DNA of 64,000 nt from Candidatus Auribacterota bacterium (GTDB lineage Bacteria; Auribacterota; JAFGBW01), in the NCBI GenBank assembly GCA_016932965.1, contig JAFGBW010000039.1, positions 5,979 to 69,978 on the forward strand. Direction: 5' to 3'. The position numbers were made by a program, and so were the translations under genes. This document shows positions 29,814 through 50,670 of this stretch, piece by piece. Under the pieces are notes generated by a model that searched no databases, was not told where the DNA came from, and was given only the letters and a program-made list of their open reading frames with translations. Numbering within the stretch: position 1 is the first letter of the stretch; each line of letters starts with the position of its first letter.

Positions 29814-30845
29814 ATGATCATAGGTTTGACAGGCCGTAACGGTTCAGGAAAAAGTACGGTGGCTGAATTTTTGATTCATCGGGGTTTTCAATATTATTCA
29901 TTATCGGATATCATCAGGGAAATCCTTTCAAAAGAAGGAAAGGAATTTTCCCGGGAGAATCTGATTGAAACCGGTAACAGTCTTCGTTCCACCATGGGGG
30001 CGGCCGTTCTTGCGGAGAAGACGGTTGAAAAACTGATGCCGGATCGAAATTATGTCATTGATTCCATCCGGAATCCGTCAGAAGTGGAGCGGCTGAGAAA
30101 GGTAAAAGGTTTTAAACTCATCAGGGTGGAAGCTCCCACCCGGGTACGGTTTGAACGCTGTAAATCACGCAACCGAGAGAAGGCGGATCAAGATCTGGAC
30201 TCTTTCAAAAAGCTCGAGAAGAAGGAGCTGAAAAGTCCTGATCCTGTTTCCCAGCAGCTGGAGAAGACCGGAAAAATGGCGGATTATATCCTGAGAAACA
30301 GCGGTTCGCTGGAGACTCTTCATGAGCAGGTAATCGAAATCTTGAAAGAGGTGACAAAAAAAATTTTCAGGCCGGGCTGGGACGAGTATTTCATGAATAT
30401 CGCGAGAGTGGTGGCCCAGCGTTCCAATTGTGTGAAAAGGCATGTGGCTGCGGTCATCGTTCGTGATAACCGGATCATATCTACGGGCTACAACGGCACT
30501 CCCAGAGGGATCAAAAACTGCAATGAGGGAGGATGTCCCCGGTGCAACAGTTTCGGGGTATCGGGGGAAAATCTGGGAGAATGCCTCTGTTCCCATGCGG
30601 AGGAAAATGCCATCACACAGGCAGCTTATCATGGGGTGTCCATCAGGGATGCAACATTATATACTACCTTTTCACCCTGTCTCATATGCACTAAAATGAT
30701 CATCAATTCCGGTATTCGGGAAGTGGTCTATGACTCCCGTTATTCCTTGAATGCCCTGGAGCTTCAGCTTTTGAAAGAAGCGGGGATATCCGTCAGAGCG
30801 CTCAGAGAGCATCGGGATTTCCCCGATCCGTCTGCCGGCAGATGA
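29814..30845 (+). CDS. P-loop kinase-like domain fused to dCMP deaminase
   Basis: A 343-residue fusion. Residues 1-180 form a P-loop nucleotide kinase-like domain resembling dephospho-CoA or nucleoside monophosphate kinases, with Walker A GRNGSGKST at 7-15 and DSIRNPSEVERLR near 83-95. Residues 185-343 are a deoxycytidylate deaminase with zinc ligands His261 (HAE) and Cys289/Cys292 (PCLIC) and extra cysteines at 236-259, as in the T4-like enzymes. The deaminase should convert dCMP to dUMP for thymidylate synthesis. The same architecture, in longer form, occurs in anti-phage dCTP/dCMP deaminases (AvcD/DcdV type), so a defence role cannot be excluded. The phosphohexomutase gene starts 3 bp downstream. 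Confidence 0.9.
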   Translation: MIIGLTGRNGSGKSTVAEFLIHRGFQYYSLSDIIREILSKEGKEFSRENLIETGNSLRSTMGAAVLAEKTVEKLMPDRNYVIDSIRNPSEVERLRKVKGFKLIRVEAPTRVRFERCKSRNREKADQDLDSFKKLEKKELKSPDPVSQQLEKTGKMADYILRNSGSLETLHEQVIEILKEVTKKIFRPGWDEYFMNIARVVAQRSNCVKRHVAAVIVRDNRIISTGYNGTPRGIKNCNEGGCPRCNSFGVSGENLGECLCSHAEENAITQAAYHGVSIRDATLYTTFSPCLICTKMIINSGIREVVYDSRYSLNALELQLLKEAGISVRALREHRDFPDPSAGR

Positions 30846-30848
30846 ACG

Positions 30849-32894
30849 ATGATGAATCCTGATTCTTTTGTTTCATTGATTGAAAAAGGGGAAATCTTCA
30901 TACAGGATGGTTTCCTGCAGGAATTTCTTTCGTTGACCAGGGAACATCAGGTCTTATTTTTAAGGGAATTGATTCGTATTTCGGAACGAGACATCATCCC
31001 GGGCAGTTTCAGGACCTACGATTTGAGGATTGAAGCAGCCCGTCTTCCCAATCATGTCGTTTTTTATCTGGGGTTAAAAGCAGGGCCGATATTTAGAGAG
31101 ATGACTCTGGGTCCGGACGGAAGATCGCTCATGATCGGAGTAGGCAGAGCGTTTGAAAAGGCCAGGCCTGGAAGTCATCGGATTCAACGCTGCTATATGA
31201 ACGCATTGGCCCTGACCGGAGCCCGGGTCGTGGACCTGGGGGTCACAACCACCCCGGATATTTATTTCGGACTCGCGTACCTGCTTCATCAGGGGCTCCA
31301 CGTGGCGGTCAACGTGTCGGCCAGCCATAATCCGAAAAAAGACACCGGACTGAAACATTGTATCCGGGACAGGGAAGGGTTCATTTACTCCATTTCCTCT
31401 GATCAGATGTCCCGGCTCAAAAATCATGTTCTGCCCGGGAAAAAAGAAAAAATACAGAGTGATGCCTTTCTTTTAGACACGGATTTTCATTCGCTGGAAG
31501 TTTTTTCCGTTGATCATCAGATGCTTCCTGATGAAAATACCCTGAGCCGGTTTCATCATGCTTTCATTGTCGCCTTCGGACTCCTGGGGAAAAAAGCCAT
31601 GAATGAAATGACCGTCCGTTATCAGGGTGATTTTTACCGGGTTCTTTCTTCACTGATTCCCCCGGAAAAACCGGATCAGTTGATCCCCGGATTGTTGAAA
31701 TGGTTTGAAAAGCCGTCCGGGGAAATTCGGAAATGGCTGGAGTTGTCTCCGGATGTTTCTTTTCCCGGTGCCTGCGGGGAGAAGCCGTTGAAGGACATGG
31801 TTGTGGTTTTAGATCACGGCAGGGGGACGGCTTTCAGAACCATGGAAATTTATTCTGTGCTGGGCGCCCATGTCATCTGCGTGGATGAGGAAAGGGGGTA
31901 TAATCCGTTGGAGTCGGGAAACCAGATGCACTGGAGAAAAGCGGTTCTGAAAGCTGCCGGAGATTTTCCCGGCAGGGAAGTCATCGGCCTGGCCCATGAT
32001 GAAGATGGAGACCGTCTCGCGGTCATGCGTTCTGACGGGATCAACGTGGAAGGAGACCGGCTGCTCGTCATTTCCTGCAGGCAGATGGAACCCTCGGAAA
32101 AAAAACCGATTGTGATCACAGAAGTCAAATCGAGACCCGAGACAAGGAAGGCCCTGGAGGATTCCGGCGTCGTTCCTGTGATTGCACCGACAGGGTTCGC
32201 CTTCATCAAAGAGACGGCCATTATACTGGAGAAGAAATTCAGGGAATTCCATGCCTGTTCGGAAAGCCCGGCGATCCTGAGACTTCACGGAAAGGAAATC
32301 AACCTGACAACAAACCTGCCTGTGCAGATGTGGGCGGAACTCAGCGGGCATTTCGGATTGAGCCAGGGATTGTCCTGGTTTTTTGATGATGCAACCCTCA
32401 TGGCTGTGGATCTGCTTTTGGGTCTTGAAAAAAAAATTCAATCCGGAACCAGGCCCGGACGGGCGCTCATTTCTCTGGATGAAAGTTTTCCAAGGCATCC
32501 GAGTTCAGGTGAATTGAATATATTTCTCCGGACAACAGATCCGGAGTATGTTCCGACTTCCGAAGAAAAAGAGGCGTTTGTAGCCTTGTTTGCAGAACTT
32601 TTTTCCGCTGATCCGGCAGTGGATCATCTTGATCGTACGGATGGGGTTCAGATTTTTTTTAAAGACAGTCAGGGGGAATACGGCGGATGGATTCTGATTA
32701 GAAAATCCAACAATGAGGACAAGCTGGTTGTGGTGTCGTCAGCCCCCACAAAAGAACAACTGCATCATGTGGAACAATGCTTTCTGGAAAAAGCGCGTGC
32801 TCTTTCTCTTTCTCCTATTTCCGGGCTTGTGCTGACCCAAGAAGAAGAACAGGGAACAACCCGGAAAGCGGAACCGTATTTTTTGAATCGCTAA
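30849..32894 (+). CDS. Phosphohexomutase superfamily protein (PMM/PGM-like, enlarged)
   Basis: A 681-residue member of the phosphomannomutase/phosphoglucomutase superfamily, longer than the usual 450-550. The phosphoserine loop is SASHNP (Ser159), the metal loop DEDGDR at 384-389, the sugar-binding loop AELSGHFG near 497-503, and the phosphate-binding loop near the C-terminus reads RKSNNEDK instead of RPSNTEP. About 70 residues precede the first domain, and a helical insert of roughly 120 residues (about 190-310) separates domains I and II. It probably interconverts hexose 1- and 6-phosphates, but the altered loops leave the substrate open. It follows the deaminase gene by 3 bp. Confidence 0.82.
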   Translation: MMNPDSFVSLIEKGEIFIQDGFLQEFLSLTREHQVLFLRELIRISERDIIPGSFRTYDLRIEAARLPNHVVFYLGLKAGPIFREMTLGPDGRSLMIGVGRAFEKARPGSHRIQRCYMNALALTGARVVDLGVTTTPDIYFGLAYLLHQGLHVAVNVSASHNPKKDTGLKHCIRDREGFIYSISSDQMSRLKNHVLPGKKEKIQSDAFLLDTDFHSLEVFSVDHQMLPDENTLSRFHHAFIVAFGLLGKKAMNEMTVRYQGDFYRVLSSLIPPEKPDQLIPGLLKWFEKPSGEIRKWLELSPDVSFPGACGEKPLKDMVVVLDHGRGTAFRTMEIYSVLGAHVICVDEERGYNPLESGNQMHWRKAVLKAAGDFPGREVIGLAHDEDGDRLAVMRSDGINVEGDRLLVISCRQMEPSEKKPIVITEVKSRPETRKALEDSGVVPVIAPTGFAFIKETAIILEKKFREFHACSESPAILRLHGKEINLTTNLPVQMWAELSGHFGLSQGLSWFFDDATLMAVDLLLGLEKKIQSGTRPGRALISLDESFPRHPSSGELNIFLRTTDPEYVPTSEEKEAFVALFAELFSADPAVDHLDRTDGVQIFFKDSQGEYGGWILIRKSNNEDKLVVVSSAPTKEQLHHVEQCFLEKARALSLSPISGLVLTQEEEQGTTRKAEPYFLNR

Positions 32895-34115: not shown

Positions 34116-34153
34116 GCCCTCTTTATCCCCTAGGTGATAAAGAGGGCTTTTTT
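34116..34153 (+). terminator. Strong intrinsic terminator after the HTH gene
   Basis: A perfect 12-bp stem (GCCCTCTTTATC at 34116-34127 with its complement at 34136-34147), an 8-nt loop and a T-run directly after. It ends the HTH gene transcript 70 bp past the stop and insulates the glucan kinase gene. Confidence 0.92.
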
Positions 34154-34252: not shown

Positions 34253-34281
34253 TTGACAAAGTAGATATTTACAAGTATTAT
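34253..34281 (+). promoter_or_regulatory. Near-consensus sigma70 promoter of the glucan kinase operon
   Basis: TTGACA at 34253-34258, a 17-bp spacer and TATTAT at 34276-34281 (one mismatch to TATAAT), 42 bp before the ATG at 34323. Confidence 0.75.
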
Positions 34282-34322: not shown

Positions 34323-37300
34323 ATGATAGGTCACAAGAATTTTTTTATTTGCATGATTGCCTGGTTTTTATCGACCGGATTTTTATGCCAACCGGTTCAA
34401 TGTTTTTCGCAATCTGTGGATTCTTCTTTTCTGGCTCCTTCGCATTCAGCCCAAGACCTGACCCCCATCATGGTATTAGCCGGAAAAATGCAGGGAAATC
34501 AGCCTGTTATCTGGGATGTTTCTGCAACAGGAGTGAATAAAAAAGTAATCATTGTTGTTAAGAGCAGAGAGAGAGTGCATGTTCACTGGGGTAAAAGCCG
34601 CTACGGGAATTGGGAAATTCCCCCGGAAGCCATTTGGCCGGATCACACAACAAAGATGGATGATAAGGCGGTGCAAACAGCCTTACAGCCTGTTTCGGAT
34701 AATATCCGGGTTTTTTCAGTCACTATTCCCAACTCCATGGAATTCAATGAACTGGAATTTGTGCTTTTCTATCCTGACCGTCCCCCTCACAATCAGTGGG
34801 TTAAAGACGGAAACAGGAATTATAAAATTACCGTTAAGGACGATCCTGGACTGGAAGAAATGGCTGGTGAAACCAAGAGTTGGATTCACACCATGATAGA
34901 AGGTGAAAGAGGGGAGCATGGCCGGAGTCTGATGCATAGAAATAAATTTGTTTGCGAATTGCTTGGCAGATTTCCTCATTGCAAAGAATTTTTCAGCACC
35001 CTGGCAGTGTACATGAGATACAACCGGCTTGGAGTCCTGCCGTGGCAGAGAGGTTATAATACGACGCCAAGAGAAATGACTGCGAGCGTTGACAGATTGA
35101 ATGAGACTATTTCAAGATTGATGATCACGGATTCTAAACATTATTCGATGGTCAGATTATTGATGAGTTTTTTAACCCTTGGCGGAGAAAATGGACAGCA
35201 AATCCGCGATAATATTTTGCATATTTTACAGAATAACGGGGTCCGGGGGACTACTTTTCTGGAACAATGGCACCAGAAATTACACAACAATGCCACCCCT
35301 GATGATATTGGAATCTGTGATGCTTATCTGGCTTTTTTAAGAAGTAATGGAGATAAAGGTACATTTTATCGGGTCTTATGGGAGGGGTATGGAATTTCCA
35401 GGGAAAAACTGGCAAGTTATGAGAGACCCATTACGGTTGAGCCTGAGTTTTACGGATATGCCAAAGATGGTTTGATCCGTGATTTTGAAGCTTATCTGGA
35501 GCTCAACAGGAAAGTCCATTCCAGGGGTGATTTATTCCGGGCAAAAGCAAATGCTGAAAAATATGATGCGCCAGGATTGAATAAGCCGCTGTGGGATTTT
35601 TTTACTTTGAAATATCAGGTGGAGACCTCACAGGTGGAGCAAGGCTGGGTTAAATTATTGGACAAGCTGGTTGAAGTGCGGAGAGAGCTGCGGAGACTCA
35701 TTTTTGCGGGAGGCGACTGGTGGTATCTGAGGGATTTAGTATTTTTGGATTTAAGTCTGGAAGAATATTCCAGGACCATTTCTGACAAAATCTCAGAACA
35801 AGTTAACGACCAGGAAATCATGTGGGAAGCAGCTAGGAATTTAAGCCTTCAACTTGAAAATATTGTACTCAGTTCTGATGCAGACGATTGGGATATGCTG
35901 GAAATCAATATCATAAAAAGAGAATGGGACAAGATTCAACAAGAGCCGATTAAAGACGAACAATGGCATTTGCATTCCAAAGCTATTCTGGACCGTTTGC
36001 AGAGAGTCATTGGAGACCGTATTCAAAAGGAGACTGAACTGCTTCAGCCCAAGGCTGAACTATTAGGAAACCAGGTCCTTGCAGAAAAAGACAAATGGGC
36101 CATTCCTCTTTTTAGCGAAGAACTGGTCCGGGGTTCCCCTCTATTTTCTATAGCCAATATTTTGAAACCCCTGCGCAAGGCAGCCAGACAAAAAGCTCTC
36201 TTGCCTCCCTGGGATGTCATTGTGCCTGGCAGAGTTTCTGCAGAAGTGAGGAAAGCAAAATCATTGAAAGAAATTTTGGCAGGAATACAACCGGGAGACA
36301 GGATCATTGCTGTTGTCAAAGACCTGGATGGAAGCGAAGACATTCCTCCCCAGATAGCAGGGATTATCAGCCAAAGGGAAGTGGATATCACATCGCATCT
36401 GGCTGTCAGGGCAAGGAATTTAAAAGTTCCCTTTGTTTTCATTGATTCGGAAGAAGAATTTCAGACCGTTTATCAAAATGACCGTCCTGTCAAACTTCAT
36501 GTTTTTGAAGGCATGACAAAACCCTGGCAGGTTTATACAGGGGATTTAAGCATGGTCAGTATCCCTGCCGAAATTCCTGAAATCACCATCCCTTCTGTTG
36601 ATCTGACAGCAGAACCTGCCTGTCTAAAAATACAGGAATTCACAATGGATAAGGTCGGGCCAAAAGGTTCCCAGATAAAGCAATTGATGGAAGACGTGAG
36701 TGAGAAGAAAGACGTGACAATTCCTAATTCAGTTGATGTGCCGTATGGAGTTTATCAGGCAGTGCTTAAAGATAAAAACAATTTAGAAATAGCACAACAA
36801 ATACAAGAGTTAATTGCAAGAGCGGACGCTGAAACTGCAAGAGATGCCGCCAAGCAGTATATTGCGGAGATAGAGAGATTGACTAAAACATTAGTGATAC
36901 CTGATGAGATTTTAAAGCCTATTTTAGATGCGATAAAACAAGAGATAGGAGAGGATAAAATTCTGATGGTGCGTTCTTCAGCTAACGGGGAGGATCTGGA
37001 AAAATACGCCGGCGCAGGTTTATATGAATCTTATTTTAATGTTTCATTGGATAAGGTGGAGCAACATATCAAATGGGTGTGGGCTTCCAAATGGACGGAA
37101 CGCGCGTACTGGAGCAGGCGCGATATGAAAATTGACCATGACCAGATCCATGTTTCAGCGCTTATTCAGGAATGTTTTCATTTTGATTATTCCTTTGTGA
37201 TTCATACGGTCAATCCGGTTAACAATGATCCGGATGAAGTCATGATTGAGGTTGCCCAGGGGCTGGGGGAAGCCATCGTTGCCAATTATCCGGGGAGCGC

Positions 37301-37673
37301 CTATCGTTTCATTTATAATAAAAAAACACATGAAGTCAGGCGCATCGCCTTTGCCAGTAAAAGTCTGAAATGCATTATCAAAGACGGCCAACTGCAATTG
37401 GTTTCAGTTGACTACAGCGATGATTTCCTGGCAGGACCAAAAGAGCAATGGGAGGAAGTGATAAGGTCTATCGGTGAAGCAGGATGTTTGATTGAAGAAA
37501 AAAGGGGAGGGAATGCCCAGGATATCGAAGGAGGGTATTTTTCCAGGTATGCAGACAAGCCGGATATCCTGGGTTTGGTCCAGACGAGGGACCAGATGAT
37601 TGTAGAGATTGTAACGGAGAAGCCTGTTGGACCAGCGGCGGAACCACCGGACGCAGTTTTGACTGCGGCATGA
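34323..37673 (+). CDS. Glucan, water dikinase-like protein with CBM45-like module
   Basis: A 1116-residue protein closely resembling plant GWD, which transfers the beta-phosphate of ATP to glucosyl units of starch through a phosphohistidine. Order: hydrophobic signal-like segment (7-27); CBM45-like module (about 60-175: VHVHWGKSRYGNWEIPPE, then FVLFYPDRPPHNQWVKDG); GWD core with EQWHQKLHNNATPDDIGICDA-type segment near 314-334; phosphohistidine loop SHLAVRARN with His692; C-terminal ATP-binding domain with VRSSANGEDLEKYAGAGLY near 883 and HTVNPVNNDPDEVMIEVAQGLGE near 961. All catalytic hallmarks are kept, so activity on an alpha-glucan is likely. A signal-like N-terminus on an ATP-using enzyme is odd. 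The HAD-phosphatase gene follows 12 bp later. Confidence 0.88.
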   Translation: MIGHKNFFICMIAWFLSTGFLCQPVQCFSQSVDSSFLAPSHSAQDLTPIMVLAGKMQGNQPVIWDVSATGVNKKVIIVVKSRERVHVHWGKSRYGNWEIPPEAIWPDHTTKMDDKAVQTALQPVSDNIRVFSVTIPNSMEFNELEFVLFYPDRPPHNQWVKDGNRNYKITVKDDPGLEEMAGETKSWIHTMIEGERGEHGRSLMHRNKFVCELLGRFPHCKEFFSTLAVYMRYNRLGVLPWQRGYNTTPREMTASVDRLNETISRLMITDSKHYSMVRLLMSFLTLGGENGQQIRDNILHILQNNGVRGTTFLEQWHQKLHNNATPDDIGICDAYLAFLRSNGDKGTFYRVLWEGYGISREKLASYERPITVEPEFYGYAKDGLIRDFEAYLELNRKVHSRGDLFRAKANAEKYDAPGLNKPLWDFFTLKYQVETSQVEQGWVKLLDKLVEVRRELRRLIFAGGDWWYLRDLVFLDLSLEEYSRTISDKISEQVNDQEIMWEAARNLSLQLENIVLSSDADDWDMLEINIIKREWDKIQQEPIKDEQWHLHSKAILDRLQRVIGDRIQKETELLQPKAELLGNQVLAEKDKWAIPLFSEELVRGSPLFSIANILKPLRKAARQKALLPPWDVIVPGRVSAEVRKAKSLKEILAGIQPGDRIIAVVKDLDGSEDIPPQIAGIISQREVDITSHLAVRARNLKVPFVFIDSEEEFQTVYQNDRPVKLHVFEGMTKPWQVYTGDLSMVSIPAEIPEITIPSVDLTAEPACLKIQEFTMDKVGPKGSQIKQLMEDVSEKKDVTIPNSVDVPYGVYQAVLKDKNNLEIAQQIQELIARADAETARDAAKQYIAEIERLTKTLVIPDEILKPILDAIKQEIGEDKILMVRSSANGEDLEKYAGAGLYESYFNVSLDKVEQHIKWVWASKWTERAYWSRRDMKIDHDQIHVSALIQECFHFDYSFVIHTVNPVNNDPDEVMIEVAQGLGEAIVANYPGSAYRFIYNKKTHEVRRIAFASKSLKCIIKDGQLQLVSVDYSDDFLAGPKEQWEEVIRSIGEAGCLIEEKRGGNAQDIEGGYFSRYADKPDILGLVQTRDQMIVEIVTEKPVGPAAEPPDAVLTAA

Positions 37674-37685
37674 TGAGAATGTGTC

Positions 37686-39365
37686 ATGGATAATAGCAAA
37701 CCAATTCAGAAACGATTGAATCTCCCGGTTTTTCTTTTAGGAAAAGCTGGAAGAATCAGGGGTCAATCAATTTTTTTAATCCTATCCGGTTTCATCAGCA
37801 GTCTTCTTATTTTTTTCCATACACCGGCGTTTGCTGACCTCTGTTTATTCTGTCTTGCCCCACAAGAGCAGACTTCAAGAGAAATGGCGGTTTTTACTTC
37901 CATTTCGAAAGAGCTGAACAGGGAAGGGCAAGTGGCTTTCAGAAGCATTCAAAGACCAGGCGAGGTCGATCTGATTGCTGCGGTGAAGTCAAGTGAGCCC
38001 GTCTATCTCCACTGGGGAGTTTCCCGTTTCGGGAAATGGGAGATGCCGCCTGAAGACATCCGGCCTTTGGATTCAATACCTAATCAAAAAGGGACATCTC
38101 TTCAAACCCGGATGCAGTCTTTATCGGGTGATATCCGGTTTGTAAAAATAACTGTGCCTGAACATGTTGATTGCAGCGAAATCGCTTTTGTTTTTTATTA
38201 TCCGGAACGGGCGAAGGAGCAACAGTGGGTTAAAGACGGAGACAAGGACTATTATCTGGCAGATATTCACACATTCCCGGAATTAATTAGCTGCAATGAA
38301 CAGACAAGGACCCTGGAATTCAACAAACATGAACTGAAAAAATGGATCATTGGATTGATTGAAAGAGGACTTCTTCCCATGCTGTTTTTTGATTTTGATG
38401 ATACGTTGAATCTGGGGTATGGCGGATATATGCCTGACGAATCCATTGGGGCTTTGGATCAGCTTGTCAATGCCGGCGGGATCATTGCCATTCATTCAGG
38501 GATAGATTTATTATGGGGAAGCCAGAAAATTCTCCGTTTGACGCAATCCAGATTTCCGTTTCATTTTCTGGTCTTGAGCACGGGTAAAGATATTTTTGCC
38601 TGGAGTCATCAGCATAAGGCCTATTTAAAACTTCCATTCTCAGGAGACAATAAGAGCGATGCTTTAATGAAACTGGCCTCTTTTTTAGGAATTCTGCCTC
38701 ATCAAATGGGGTATTGCTGTGATTTTCCCGGAAGCGGTGATAAACAGGACGGGATTGATGATCCGACATTATCTTCAAACATCGGTTTCATAGCCAATGT
38801 AAGTCCGTTTGGAAGAATGATGAAACTTCCCGCTGAATCTTCAACCAGACTGATTCAGCCTGATGATAACCCTTTGACAAGGCAGGCTAAAGGCGCCTGT
38901 AATTACATGGCTGCGGCAAGCGATGTGTTGCGACAATATGGTCAAACACCGAATCAAGCCATCAGTGATATCAACACCAAGTTACTGGCCGCTGGTTTTA
39001 AACTGCCGGTCCTGGAACCCCGTGTGGATCAATATACTGTCTGGACCAAGGACAATCAGGTGTCAGCTATCCCTGAAGGACATGTTCTGCGTGTTGAGAC
39101 TGACAAACCCGGAATGGTCTATGCCGGAAAAGAAGGAATCAGCGGCTGGGAACGAACGTACGCTATTCCCCTAAGATTAGAAAGCGGTAAATGGATAGCT
39201 GATATTTTAGACCCTGAAGTCAATACCTTTACTTTTATCGAGAACGATCCTCTTGATGAAAAAAAGGTCGGGTGGCTAGGAAAAAAAGGCGCAAATTATT
39301 ATTTTTCCAGATACGCTGTTCCATCCGGGACGTCTCATGGGTCCCAAGCTTCGTTTTCAGCCTGA
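37686..39365 (+). CDS. CBM45-like module fused to HAD phosphatase domain
   Basis: A 559-residue protein, seen as the phosphatase partner of the preceding kinase. Order: basic N-terminus and hydrophobic segment 29-50 ending AFA; CBM45-like module (about 85-192: VYLHWGVSRFGKWEMPPED, FVFYYPERAKEQQWVKDG), clearly related to that of the kinase; HAD domain about 230-385 with motif I DFDDT (Asp236, Asp238), motif II Ser271, motif III Lys323 in DNKSDALMKL, and motif IV around Asp346-Asp359. This resembles Cof or sucrose/trehalose-phosphate phosphatases. A C-terminal beta-rich region (about 450-541, GWERTYAIPLRLESGKW) could be another sugar-binding module. Predicted to remove phosphate from a glucan or sugar phosphate; substrate untested. 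Confidence 0.78.
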   Translation: MDNSKPIQKRLNLPVFLLGKAGRIRGQSIFLILSGFISSLLIFFHTPAFADLCLFCLAPQEQTSREMAVFTSISKELNREGQVAFRSIQRPGEVDLIAAVKSSEPVYLHWGVSRFGKWEMPPEDIRPLDSIPNQKGTSLQTRMQSLSGDIRFVKITVPEHVDCSEIAFVFYYPERAKEQQWVKDGDKDYYLADIHTFPELISCNEQTRTLEFNKHELKKWIIGLIERGLLPMLFFDFDDTLNLGYGGYMPDESIGALDQLVNAGGIIAIHSGIDLLWGSQKILRLTQSRFPFHFLVLSTGKDIFAWSHQHKAYLKLPFSGDNKSDALMKLASFLGILPHQMGYCCDFPGSGDKQDGIDDPTLSSNIGFIANVSPFGRMMKLPAESSTRLIQPDDNPLTRQAKGACNYMAAASDVLRQYGQTPNQAISDINTKLLAAGFKLPVLEPRVDQYTVWTKDNQVSAIPEGHVLRVETDKPGMVYAGKEGISGWERTYAIPLRLESGKWIADILDPEVNTFTFIENDPLDEKKVGWLGKKGANYYFSRYAVPSGTSHGSQASFSA

Positions 39366-39388: not shown

Positions 39389-39418
39389 TACGATGTTTTG
39401 TTTTGACAAAACATCGTA
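39389..39418. terminator. Perfect 12-bp inverted repeat after the phosphatase gene
   Basis: TACGATGTTTTG at 39389-39400 and its exact complement at 39407-39418 with a 6-nt centre, 24 bp after the stop. No T-run follows, so it may be a transcript-end hairpin or a protein-binding palindrome. Confidence 0.55.
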
Positions 39419-49738: not shown

Positions 49739-49827
49739 ATATTAGAATATTTTTCTATTGAATAACAAATAAAAAGCATGCCGGTATGATGAATAAGCAT
49801 CCATGGATAGGGTGAATCAGTGTCTAC

Positions 49828-50670
49828 ATGATATTTATTTCTGTCTGTTGCTCAGATCGTTTTAGTCACGGACACTCAGAATCCGTGTCAGACGTGAATG
49901 TTCTTGCTCCTGTTTCGAGCCTTGAGAAATATTCTTTTGATCTTGAGTACGGGGCCGGCTTCAGTGAAGTTGTACAAGAACTGTCTGCTGATATGGAATT
50001 AACTGCAGGCAGGAAGGAAGAATTTAGGATTTTTTATATATCATACAGTCAATTTCAAAGGATGTGGATTCTCCGTACATGGACTATTCCTGAAGAATAT
50101 TTGAGGAAATGTTTCTCTGCAGAAAGGATCGCAGACCTTTTTTACCTCTATGAGGTCTATCAATTCAATGTGATTGATCTGCTGCAGAAGAACCATACCC
50201 AAGGGATCCTGACTTCGGATGAGGGAGTGCAAACAAGATATGTTTTTAATAAAACAGGTCATTTCAGCCTCATTTTGACTCAGAATAGGGAGGACACACA
50301 AATAGAATTAGGAAAAGCTGTCCGCGGCTCTTATGGATTGAATCCGGAATATTATGAAATGACCAAAGGAAAGAATCTGGGAAATTTTTTAATCAAAGCC
50401 CATTTATTTCTCGTTTGGTTTACAGGAGAAAATGCCGAAGATGTTCAAATAGCCGCAAACGGGATGCAGGAATTAAGAAAATATTATCGATCTATCGGAG
50501 CAGAGATCTGTGCTCCACACAGGGCATTATTCCGTCTTTTTGGCGGATTGGATGCAGCTATTCTCACTCCGGAACAGGCCCGTTTTTTAAAAAAACAGAA
50601 ATGTACCCTGGAAACAATGGAGCCAGCGGAAGTTGGACAGATATTATCAAAGGGCAAGACGAGGTGCTAG
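49828..50670 (+). CDS. Hypothetical protein with LAP motif near N-terminus
   Basis: A 280-residue protein I do not recognise. It looks globular and soluble, with mixed helices and strands (RIFYISYSQFQRMWILRTW, RIADLFYLYEVYQFNVIDLL, GHFSLILTQNREDTQIELGK, NLGNFLIKAHLFLVWFTGENAEDV). Residues 24-30 read NVLAPVS, similar to the LAP motif near the N-termini of the glucan kinase and phosphatase at 34-38 kb. The first few residues are short and hydrophobic but too short for a signal peptide, and there is no good ribosome site, so the start is uncertain. It is divergent from arnD and about 300 bp upstream of the flavin reductase gene. Confidence 0.6.
   Translation: MIFISVCCSDRFSHGHSESVSDVNVLAPVSSLEKYSFDLEYGAGFSEVVQELSADMELTAGRKEEFRIFYISYSQFQRMWILRTWTIPEEYLRKCFSAERIADLFYLYEVYQFNVIDLLQKNHTQGILTSDEGVQTRYVFNKTGHFSLILTQNREDTQIELGKAVRGSYGLNPEYYEMTKGKNLGNFLIKAHLFLVWFTGENAEDVQIAANGMQELRKYYRSIGAEICAPHRALFRLFGGLDAAILTPEQARFLKKQKCTLETMEPAEVGQILSKGKTRC

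Follow-up and report, generated by a model that had tools for sequence, protein, structure and literature searches.

A glucan, water dikinase gene and a probable HAD-type phosphoglucan phosphatase gene in Candidatus Auribacterota: a candidate bacterial write/erase pair for glucan phosphate

The question raised by the locus described here is whether two neighbouring bacterial genes encode one enzyme that writes phosphate on an alpha-glucan and another that erases it. The window, which is the whole stretch of 64,000 nucleotides analysed from a Candidatus Auribacterota bacterium (contig JAFGBW010000039.1 of assembly GCA_016932965.1, a single draft genome that is 92.6% complete), carries on its + strand an open reading frame for a glucan, water dikinase (GWD) at 34323-37673 (1116 aa), followed after an intergenic gap of 12 bp by a second frame at 37686-39365 (559 aa); both positions and the spacing agree exactly with a preliminary description of the locus made from the DNA letters. 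We regard it as moderately probable, judging from sequence, that this two-gene unit is a phosphoglucan write/erase pair for the reversible phosphorylation of an alpha-1,4/1,6-glucan. The first protein and its parts are as follows.

34323..37673, + strand: glucan, water dikinase, 1116 aa (profile and phmmer matches, His692)
34527..34832, + strand: CBM45-like module of the GWD, residues 69-170 (PF23166, E 3.6e-16; five aromatic positions)
34866..36191, + strand: helical core of the GWD, residues 182-623 (phmmer to 9ha9_A, a solved plant GWD, E 1.4e-64)
36210..36479, + strand: phosphohistidine domain (GWD1_pHisD), residues 630-719 (PF22973, E 4.4e-15, passes the cut-off)
36396-36398, + strand: His692, the phosphohistidine of the GWD, located within DITSHLAVRARN
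36651..37595, + strand: ATP-binding domain (PPDK_N), residues 777-1091 (PF01326, E 2.9e-38; segment order of phosphoenolpyruvate (PEP) synthase)

The helical core, the phosphohistidine domain with its histidine and the PPDK-type ATP domain were all found in profile and phmmer tests, and the first protein is almost certainly a complete GWD, as the preliminary description had proposed from His692 and the ATP-binding domain. A misreading of this protein as PEP synthase is excluded by the match to the GWD core, and the plasmid tblastn matches to the GWD are only PEP-synthase-type ATP domains. GWDs are rare in bacteria: of 384 genomes sampled, the family cut-off was passed only by the genome of the window and by one more. 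The genome of the window has a second GWD gene (L012:682-4023, contig C219), whose product is 56% identical to the first.

The second protein is a probable phosphatase of the HAD type, with the following parts.

37686..39365, + strand: probable HAD-type phosphoglucan phosphatase, 559 aa (motifs and profile matches below cut-off)
37929..38258, + strand: CBM45-like module, residues 82-191 (PF23166, E 5.4e-12; 42% identical to the GWD module)
38379..38855, + strand: HAD-like core, about residues 232-390, with D236, D238, S271, K323 and an acidic cluster at 346-359 (below curated cut-offs)
39048..39320, + strand: beta-rich domain at the C-terminus, about residues 455-545, perhaps another binding module (strands seen in a model of low confidence)

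A large protein encoded elsewhere in the genome (L137:1-1842, contig C245) has a C-terminal part resembling this last domain (E 0.003). The residues DFDDT (236-240), Ser271 and Lys323, noticed already in the preliminary description, lie where it placed them, and together with the acidic residues D346-D359 they follow the order of HAD motifs I-IV. When the isolated core was compared with Pfam, Hydrolase_3 was the sole hit (E 0.0065, 16.7 bits against a cut-off of 20.9), and HAD-IIB (14.6 bits, cut-off 41.8) and Cof were the sole hits in NCBIfam (E 0.026 and 0.048, respectively), all three in register with motif I. The ordered motif pattern, which was composed after the protein had been seen, was satisfied by 0 of 20,000 shuffles of the core and by 0 of 404 other frames of the genome, a set that is approximate and does not contain the HAD protein itself. 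Profile-profile comparison with Cof-type HADs brought motifs I-II into register, weakly, with a score about fifth among 251 segments, and no match was obtained with KdsC-type capless HADs. On these grounds a HAD fold for the second protein appears quite likely. Neither a dual-specificity phosphatase (DSP) domain nor a CxAGxGR loop was found in it by profile scan and inspection of the sequence, placing it outside the SEX4/laforin family, although it may work like these enzymes.

The two proteins are tied to each other, and to alpha-glucan, by the related N-terminal CBM45-like modules which the preliminary description had reported and which are borne out by the PF23166 matches given above, the modules being 42% identical over 99 residues. 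Five aromatic positions (W,W,F,W,F) are reported to be important in CBM45 (PMC7569903), and all five are aromatic in both proteins: W89/W97/F149/W159/Y167 in the GWD, where one F is replaced by Y, and W110/W118/Y171/W181/Y189 in the HAD protein, where two are. The module was detected in 13 of 386 genomes of the set around a second reference genome, and it was absent from the 43 other genomes of the organism's own phylum. Among ten examined proteins with the module that are not GWDs, found elsewhere in bacteria, nine carry it together with GH13, GH57, CBM48 or AMPK-type glycogen-binding modules, and one has no other called domain; the module is thus a good marker of action on alpha-glucan. The genome also encodes a glycogen synthase and has roughly ten genes of GH13, TreZ within the window among them.

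Further support comes from GWD genes outside this genome. In the phylum of the other GWD-bearing genome, GWDs were found in four of the nine genomes searched, and in three of these four, belonging to two genera, a GWD gene is followed directly 3' by a DSP gene, with gaps of 8 bp in G307, 33 bp in G384 and 92 bp in G385 (loci L021, L031 and L032). The partner proteins match DSPc with E values of 2.5e-16, 9e-13 and 1.3e-12, respectively, and share an invariant loop, CRAGIGRS, of the CxAGxGR form that is the signature of laforin and SEX4. They also have a conserved N-terminal domain of about 130 residues with no Pfam match and no convincing PDB match, which may be glucan-binding, and these DSP proteins are likely a bacterial counterpart of SEX4/laforin. 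In a tree of GWD cores, both GWDs of the present genome fall together with the DSP-paired GWDs (98/99), and plant GWD and the other bacterial GWDs lie outside this group. The segment order of the ATP domain, an independent character, agrees with this split, being of the PEP-synthase type in the present genome and the DSP-paired clade and rearranged in the bacterial members of the plant-GWD group, such as L022:8463-11129; L029:6243-9458; L030:7974-10892; and L033:1097-3814, which cluster with the plant enzyme. One further bacterial GWD adjoins glycogen-debranching genes. The trehalose-phosphate phosphatase near the GWD of L033 was considered as a parallel pair and rejected, the neighbourhood being one of trehalose and beta-phosphoglucomutase genes. 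With the sister clade DSP-paired and the GWD of the window apparently HAD-paired, a phosphatase gene accompanies the GWDs of this single clade in two phyla, and the pairing of GWD with phosphatase apparently recurs with two unrelated folds.

The sister-clade pairs of three genomes and a module typical of alpha-glucan enzymes thus give independent support to the write/erase interpretation that the preliminary description had put forward, while the HAD pairing itself was seen in one genome only. Under this interpretation the GWD would bind glucan by its CBM45-like module, take up the beta-phosphate of ATP on His692 and transfer it to a hydroxyl group of glucose in an ordered glucan chain. Phosphorylation by GWD in plants loosens the surface of granules and thereby enables amylases to act. 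The HAD protein would attach by a module of this kind too, and its core, with Asp236 as nucleophile, Asp238 as acid/base, Ser271, Lys323 and the acidic motif IV, would hydrolyse the phosphate ester, unblocking exo-acting enzymes and making the protein the functional counterpart of SEX4/laforin with another catalytic fold. The interval between motifs II and III is about 50 residues, too small for the usual C2 cap, and the absence of room for a cap would suit a polymeric substrate by letting the polymer reach the HAD site. Phosphatase activity, its substrate, a role in degradation and an exported or compartmentalised location are all what we infer.

The same features bear on the alternative of a salvage enzyme, in which a glucan-bound HAD phosphatase acts on small esters (such as glucose 6-phosphate or the maltodextrin phosphates that amylases release from phosphorylated starch) and not on the mark of the polymer. 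The nearest profiles of the second protein are HAD-IIB and Cof, HAD-IIB relatives act mostly on small sugar phosphates, and export together with an amylase would fit; however, the short motif II-III stretch provides no usual small-substrate cap, the binding module points to a polymer, and the DSP partner in the parallel pairs belongs to a type that acts on polymers. We consider salvage quite unlikely.

Several observations weigh against the write/erase interpretation. No HAD profile matches the second protein above its curated cut-off, and single-sequence structure models of the HAD part reached pLDDT values of only 40 (360 aa) and 44 (181 aa) and at that confidence gave no HAD fold, the Foldseek list from such a low-confidence model being meaningless; of the profile searches suggested in the preliminary description, that for CBM45 came out positive in both proteins and that for HAD stayed below cut-off, and its view of a HAD enzyme replacing the DSP agrees with the comparison to the sister-clade pairs. 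No relatives of the HAD protein were found in the genome and viral collections or by plasmid and phage tblastn. The collection scan with the GWD alignment used N-terminal peptides only, and a lack of relatives there is not evidence. For conserved adjacency, likewise suggested there as a check, a single case of the GWD-HAD pairing was available, the HAD protein being an orphan in everything searched; contig C219 ends directly after the second GWD, leaving its neighbour gene off the contig. Finally, it is puzzling that signal peptides stand on both proteins of the window when GWD depends on ATP.

The lack of a significant HAD match, the models without a HAD fold and the profile-profile score of only about fifth among 251 segments would fit a second protein that is a non-catalytic, module-bearing accessory or scaffold of the GWD, its DFDDT likeness having arisen by chance. 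This we consider very unlikely, as HAD-IIB-type models are the sole family matches in two libraries, in register with motif I, and none of the 20,000 shuffles meets the ordered motif pattern.

Where the pair would act is suggested by the N-termini of its two proteins.

34323 to about 34439-34445, + strand: signal peptide-like segment, then LAP (residues 37-39), of the GWD (sequence; LAP enrichment)
37686..37862, + strand: signal peptide (AFA, residues 48-50), then LAP (residues 57-59), of the HAD protein (sequence; LAP enrichment)

A signal peptide with the tripeptide LAP within a few residues was observed in the GWD of the window, the HAD protein, the second GWD (L012) and an alpha-amylase (L117), in the contexts SSFLAPSH, CLAPQE, CCLAPSH and DYLAPQT, respectively. 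In 0.72 Mb of the 3.14 Mb genome, LAP follows a hydrophobic N-terminus in 22 of 271 segments, where its frequency in the rest of the proteins predicts 1.8. Among corresponding segments it occurs in 0 of 103 taken from two other genomes of this order and in 0 of 40 from the GWD-DSP loci. Other loci with LAP are 49816-50667 of the window and L035, L043, L046, L100, L109, L112, L114, L120, L126, L130 and L134, and the LAP proteins, often cytosolic enzyme types, include radical SAM, isochorismatase, amidohydrolase, amino-acid decarboxylase and AAA ATPase types. LAP is absent from glycogen synthase (GlgA) and from those GlgB-, GlgX-, GlgE- and TreY/TreZ-like genes whose starts are readable. The signal peptide with LAP, comparable in its position after the signal peptide to the PEXEL and RxLR motifs, may be a lineage-specific sorting signal. 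With LAP on both GWDs, the HAD protein and the amylase but not on the other glycogen genes just named, the phosphorylation module seems set apart from the cytosolic glycogen machinery, and the GWD-HAD module probably acts outside the ordinary cytoplasm; on the choice between a storage and an exported glucan, left open in the preliminary description, the signal peptides and LAP speak against the ordinary cytoplasm as the site. GWD requires ATP, so the LAP proteins would have to reach a site where it is available, be it an internal compartment or the cell of a prey or host, unless the N-terminus has been misjudged.

These N-termini have a further possible explanation, an exported starch-attack kit made up of the two GWDs, the HAD phosphatase and the alpha-amylase, which would be Sec-exported, sorted by LAP and introduced into the cell of a prey or host, where ATP is available, to open up the starch or glycogen there. 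Its chemistry is common with that of the write/erase pair, and only location and target differ. It draws on the signal peptide and LAP of these four proteins, on the excess of LAP together with its absence from the organism's own GlgA-, GlgB-, GlgX-, GlgE- and TreY/TreZ-like genes as far as their starts are readable, on the presence of ATP-, S-adenosylmethionine- and pyridoxal phosphate-dependent types among the LAP proteins, and on the DSP-paired GWDs of the other phylum, which show no signal peptide. The same facts could be accounted for by anchoring to a membrane or by a compartment inside the organism, and no secretion system was identified, leaving the kit a tentative and less probable alternative. 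Its full form, in which a phosphoglucan phosphatase of the HAD type has arisen convergently to SEX4/laforin, joins a bacterial GWD in an exported kit with a lineage-specific signal-peptide-plus-LAP and works in a foreign compartment that contains ATP, is in our judgement unlikely.

The surroundings of the write/erase pair were searched by consensus scan, with the following matches.

34116..34147, + strand: terminator-like hairpin and T run with a 12-pair stem, between the upstream gene and the two-gene unit (no evidence of function)
34253..34281, + strand: promoter-like TTGACA-17-TATTAT, 11/12 match, 5' of the GWD gene
39389..39418, + strand: terminator-like hairpin of 13 pairs, 3' of the second gene

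The scan found 14 promoter-like sites against 11.5 expected, the site at 34253..34281 being the best of the 14, and the 12 bp spacing with the flanking hairpins, which are consensus matches only, fits a single transcription unit of two genes. Two genes upstream of the pair, at 30849-32894 of the window, lies a phosphoglucomutase-like gene (681 aa, oversized, with a weak match to PGM domains), and at 29814-30845 a fusion of a kinase and a deoxycytidylate deaminase was observed, resembling an anti-phage dCTP deaminase family (E 1.5e-48, under the family cut-off).

Compared with known systems, the GWD of the window shares with plant GWD1 (alpha-glucan, water dikinase, EC 2.7.9.4) the CBM45-like module, helical core, phosphohistidine domain and ATP domain, but it has one module where the plant enzyme has two, belongs to a separate clade, is bacterial with a bacterial-type signal peptide, and keeps the PEP-synthase order of the ATP domain, which is rearranged in the bacterial GWDs clustering with the plant enzyme. 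The HAD protein resembles SEX4 and laforin in its proposed removal of glucan phosphate and in joining a catalytic domain to a carbohydrate-binding module, whereas its core is HAD-like, not DSP, and its module CBM45-like, not CBM48 or CBM20. The GWD-DSP pairs of G307, G384 and G385 are similar in having a GWD of the sister clade and a phosphatase gene directly 3' with an N-terminal accessory domain, and they differ in the phosphatase fold, in that N-terminal domain and in the signal peptides, which are present in the window and were not seen in the DSP pairs. HAD-IIB and Cof-type phosphatases show the same motif I-IV order and give the best profile matches, but the HAD protein scores under their cut-offs, has almost no room for a C2 cap, carries extra modules on both sides and is predicted to be exported.

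A 2009 survey of laforin and SEX4 found no bacterial proteins combining both domains and considered a bacterial glucan phosphatase unlikely (PMC2714694). No paper on bacterial GWD-phosphatase pairs was found in a literature search whose coverage excluded most subscription journals. Reversible glucan phosphorylation has been treated as eukaryotic. The two bacterial pairings of GWD with a phosphatase, whose catalytic folds are unrelated, speak against this view: bacteria probably have a glucan phosphate switch formerly thought to be confined to eukaryotes. The bacterial GWD groups are also relevant to where plant GWD came from, as one of them clusters with the plant enzyme and another with the phosphatase-paired GWDs.

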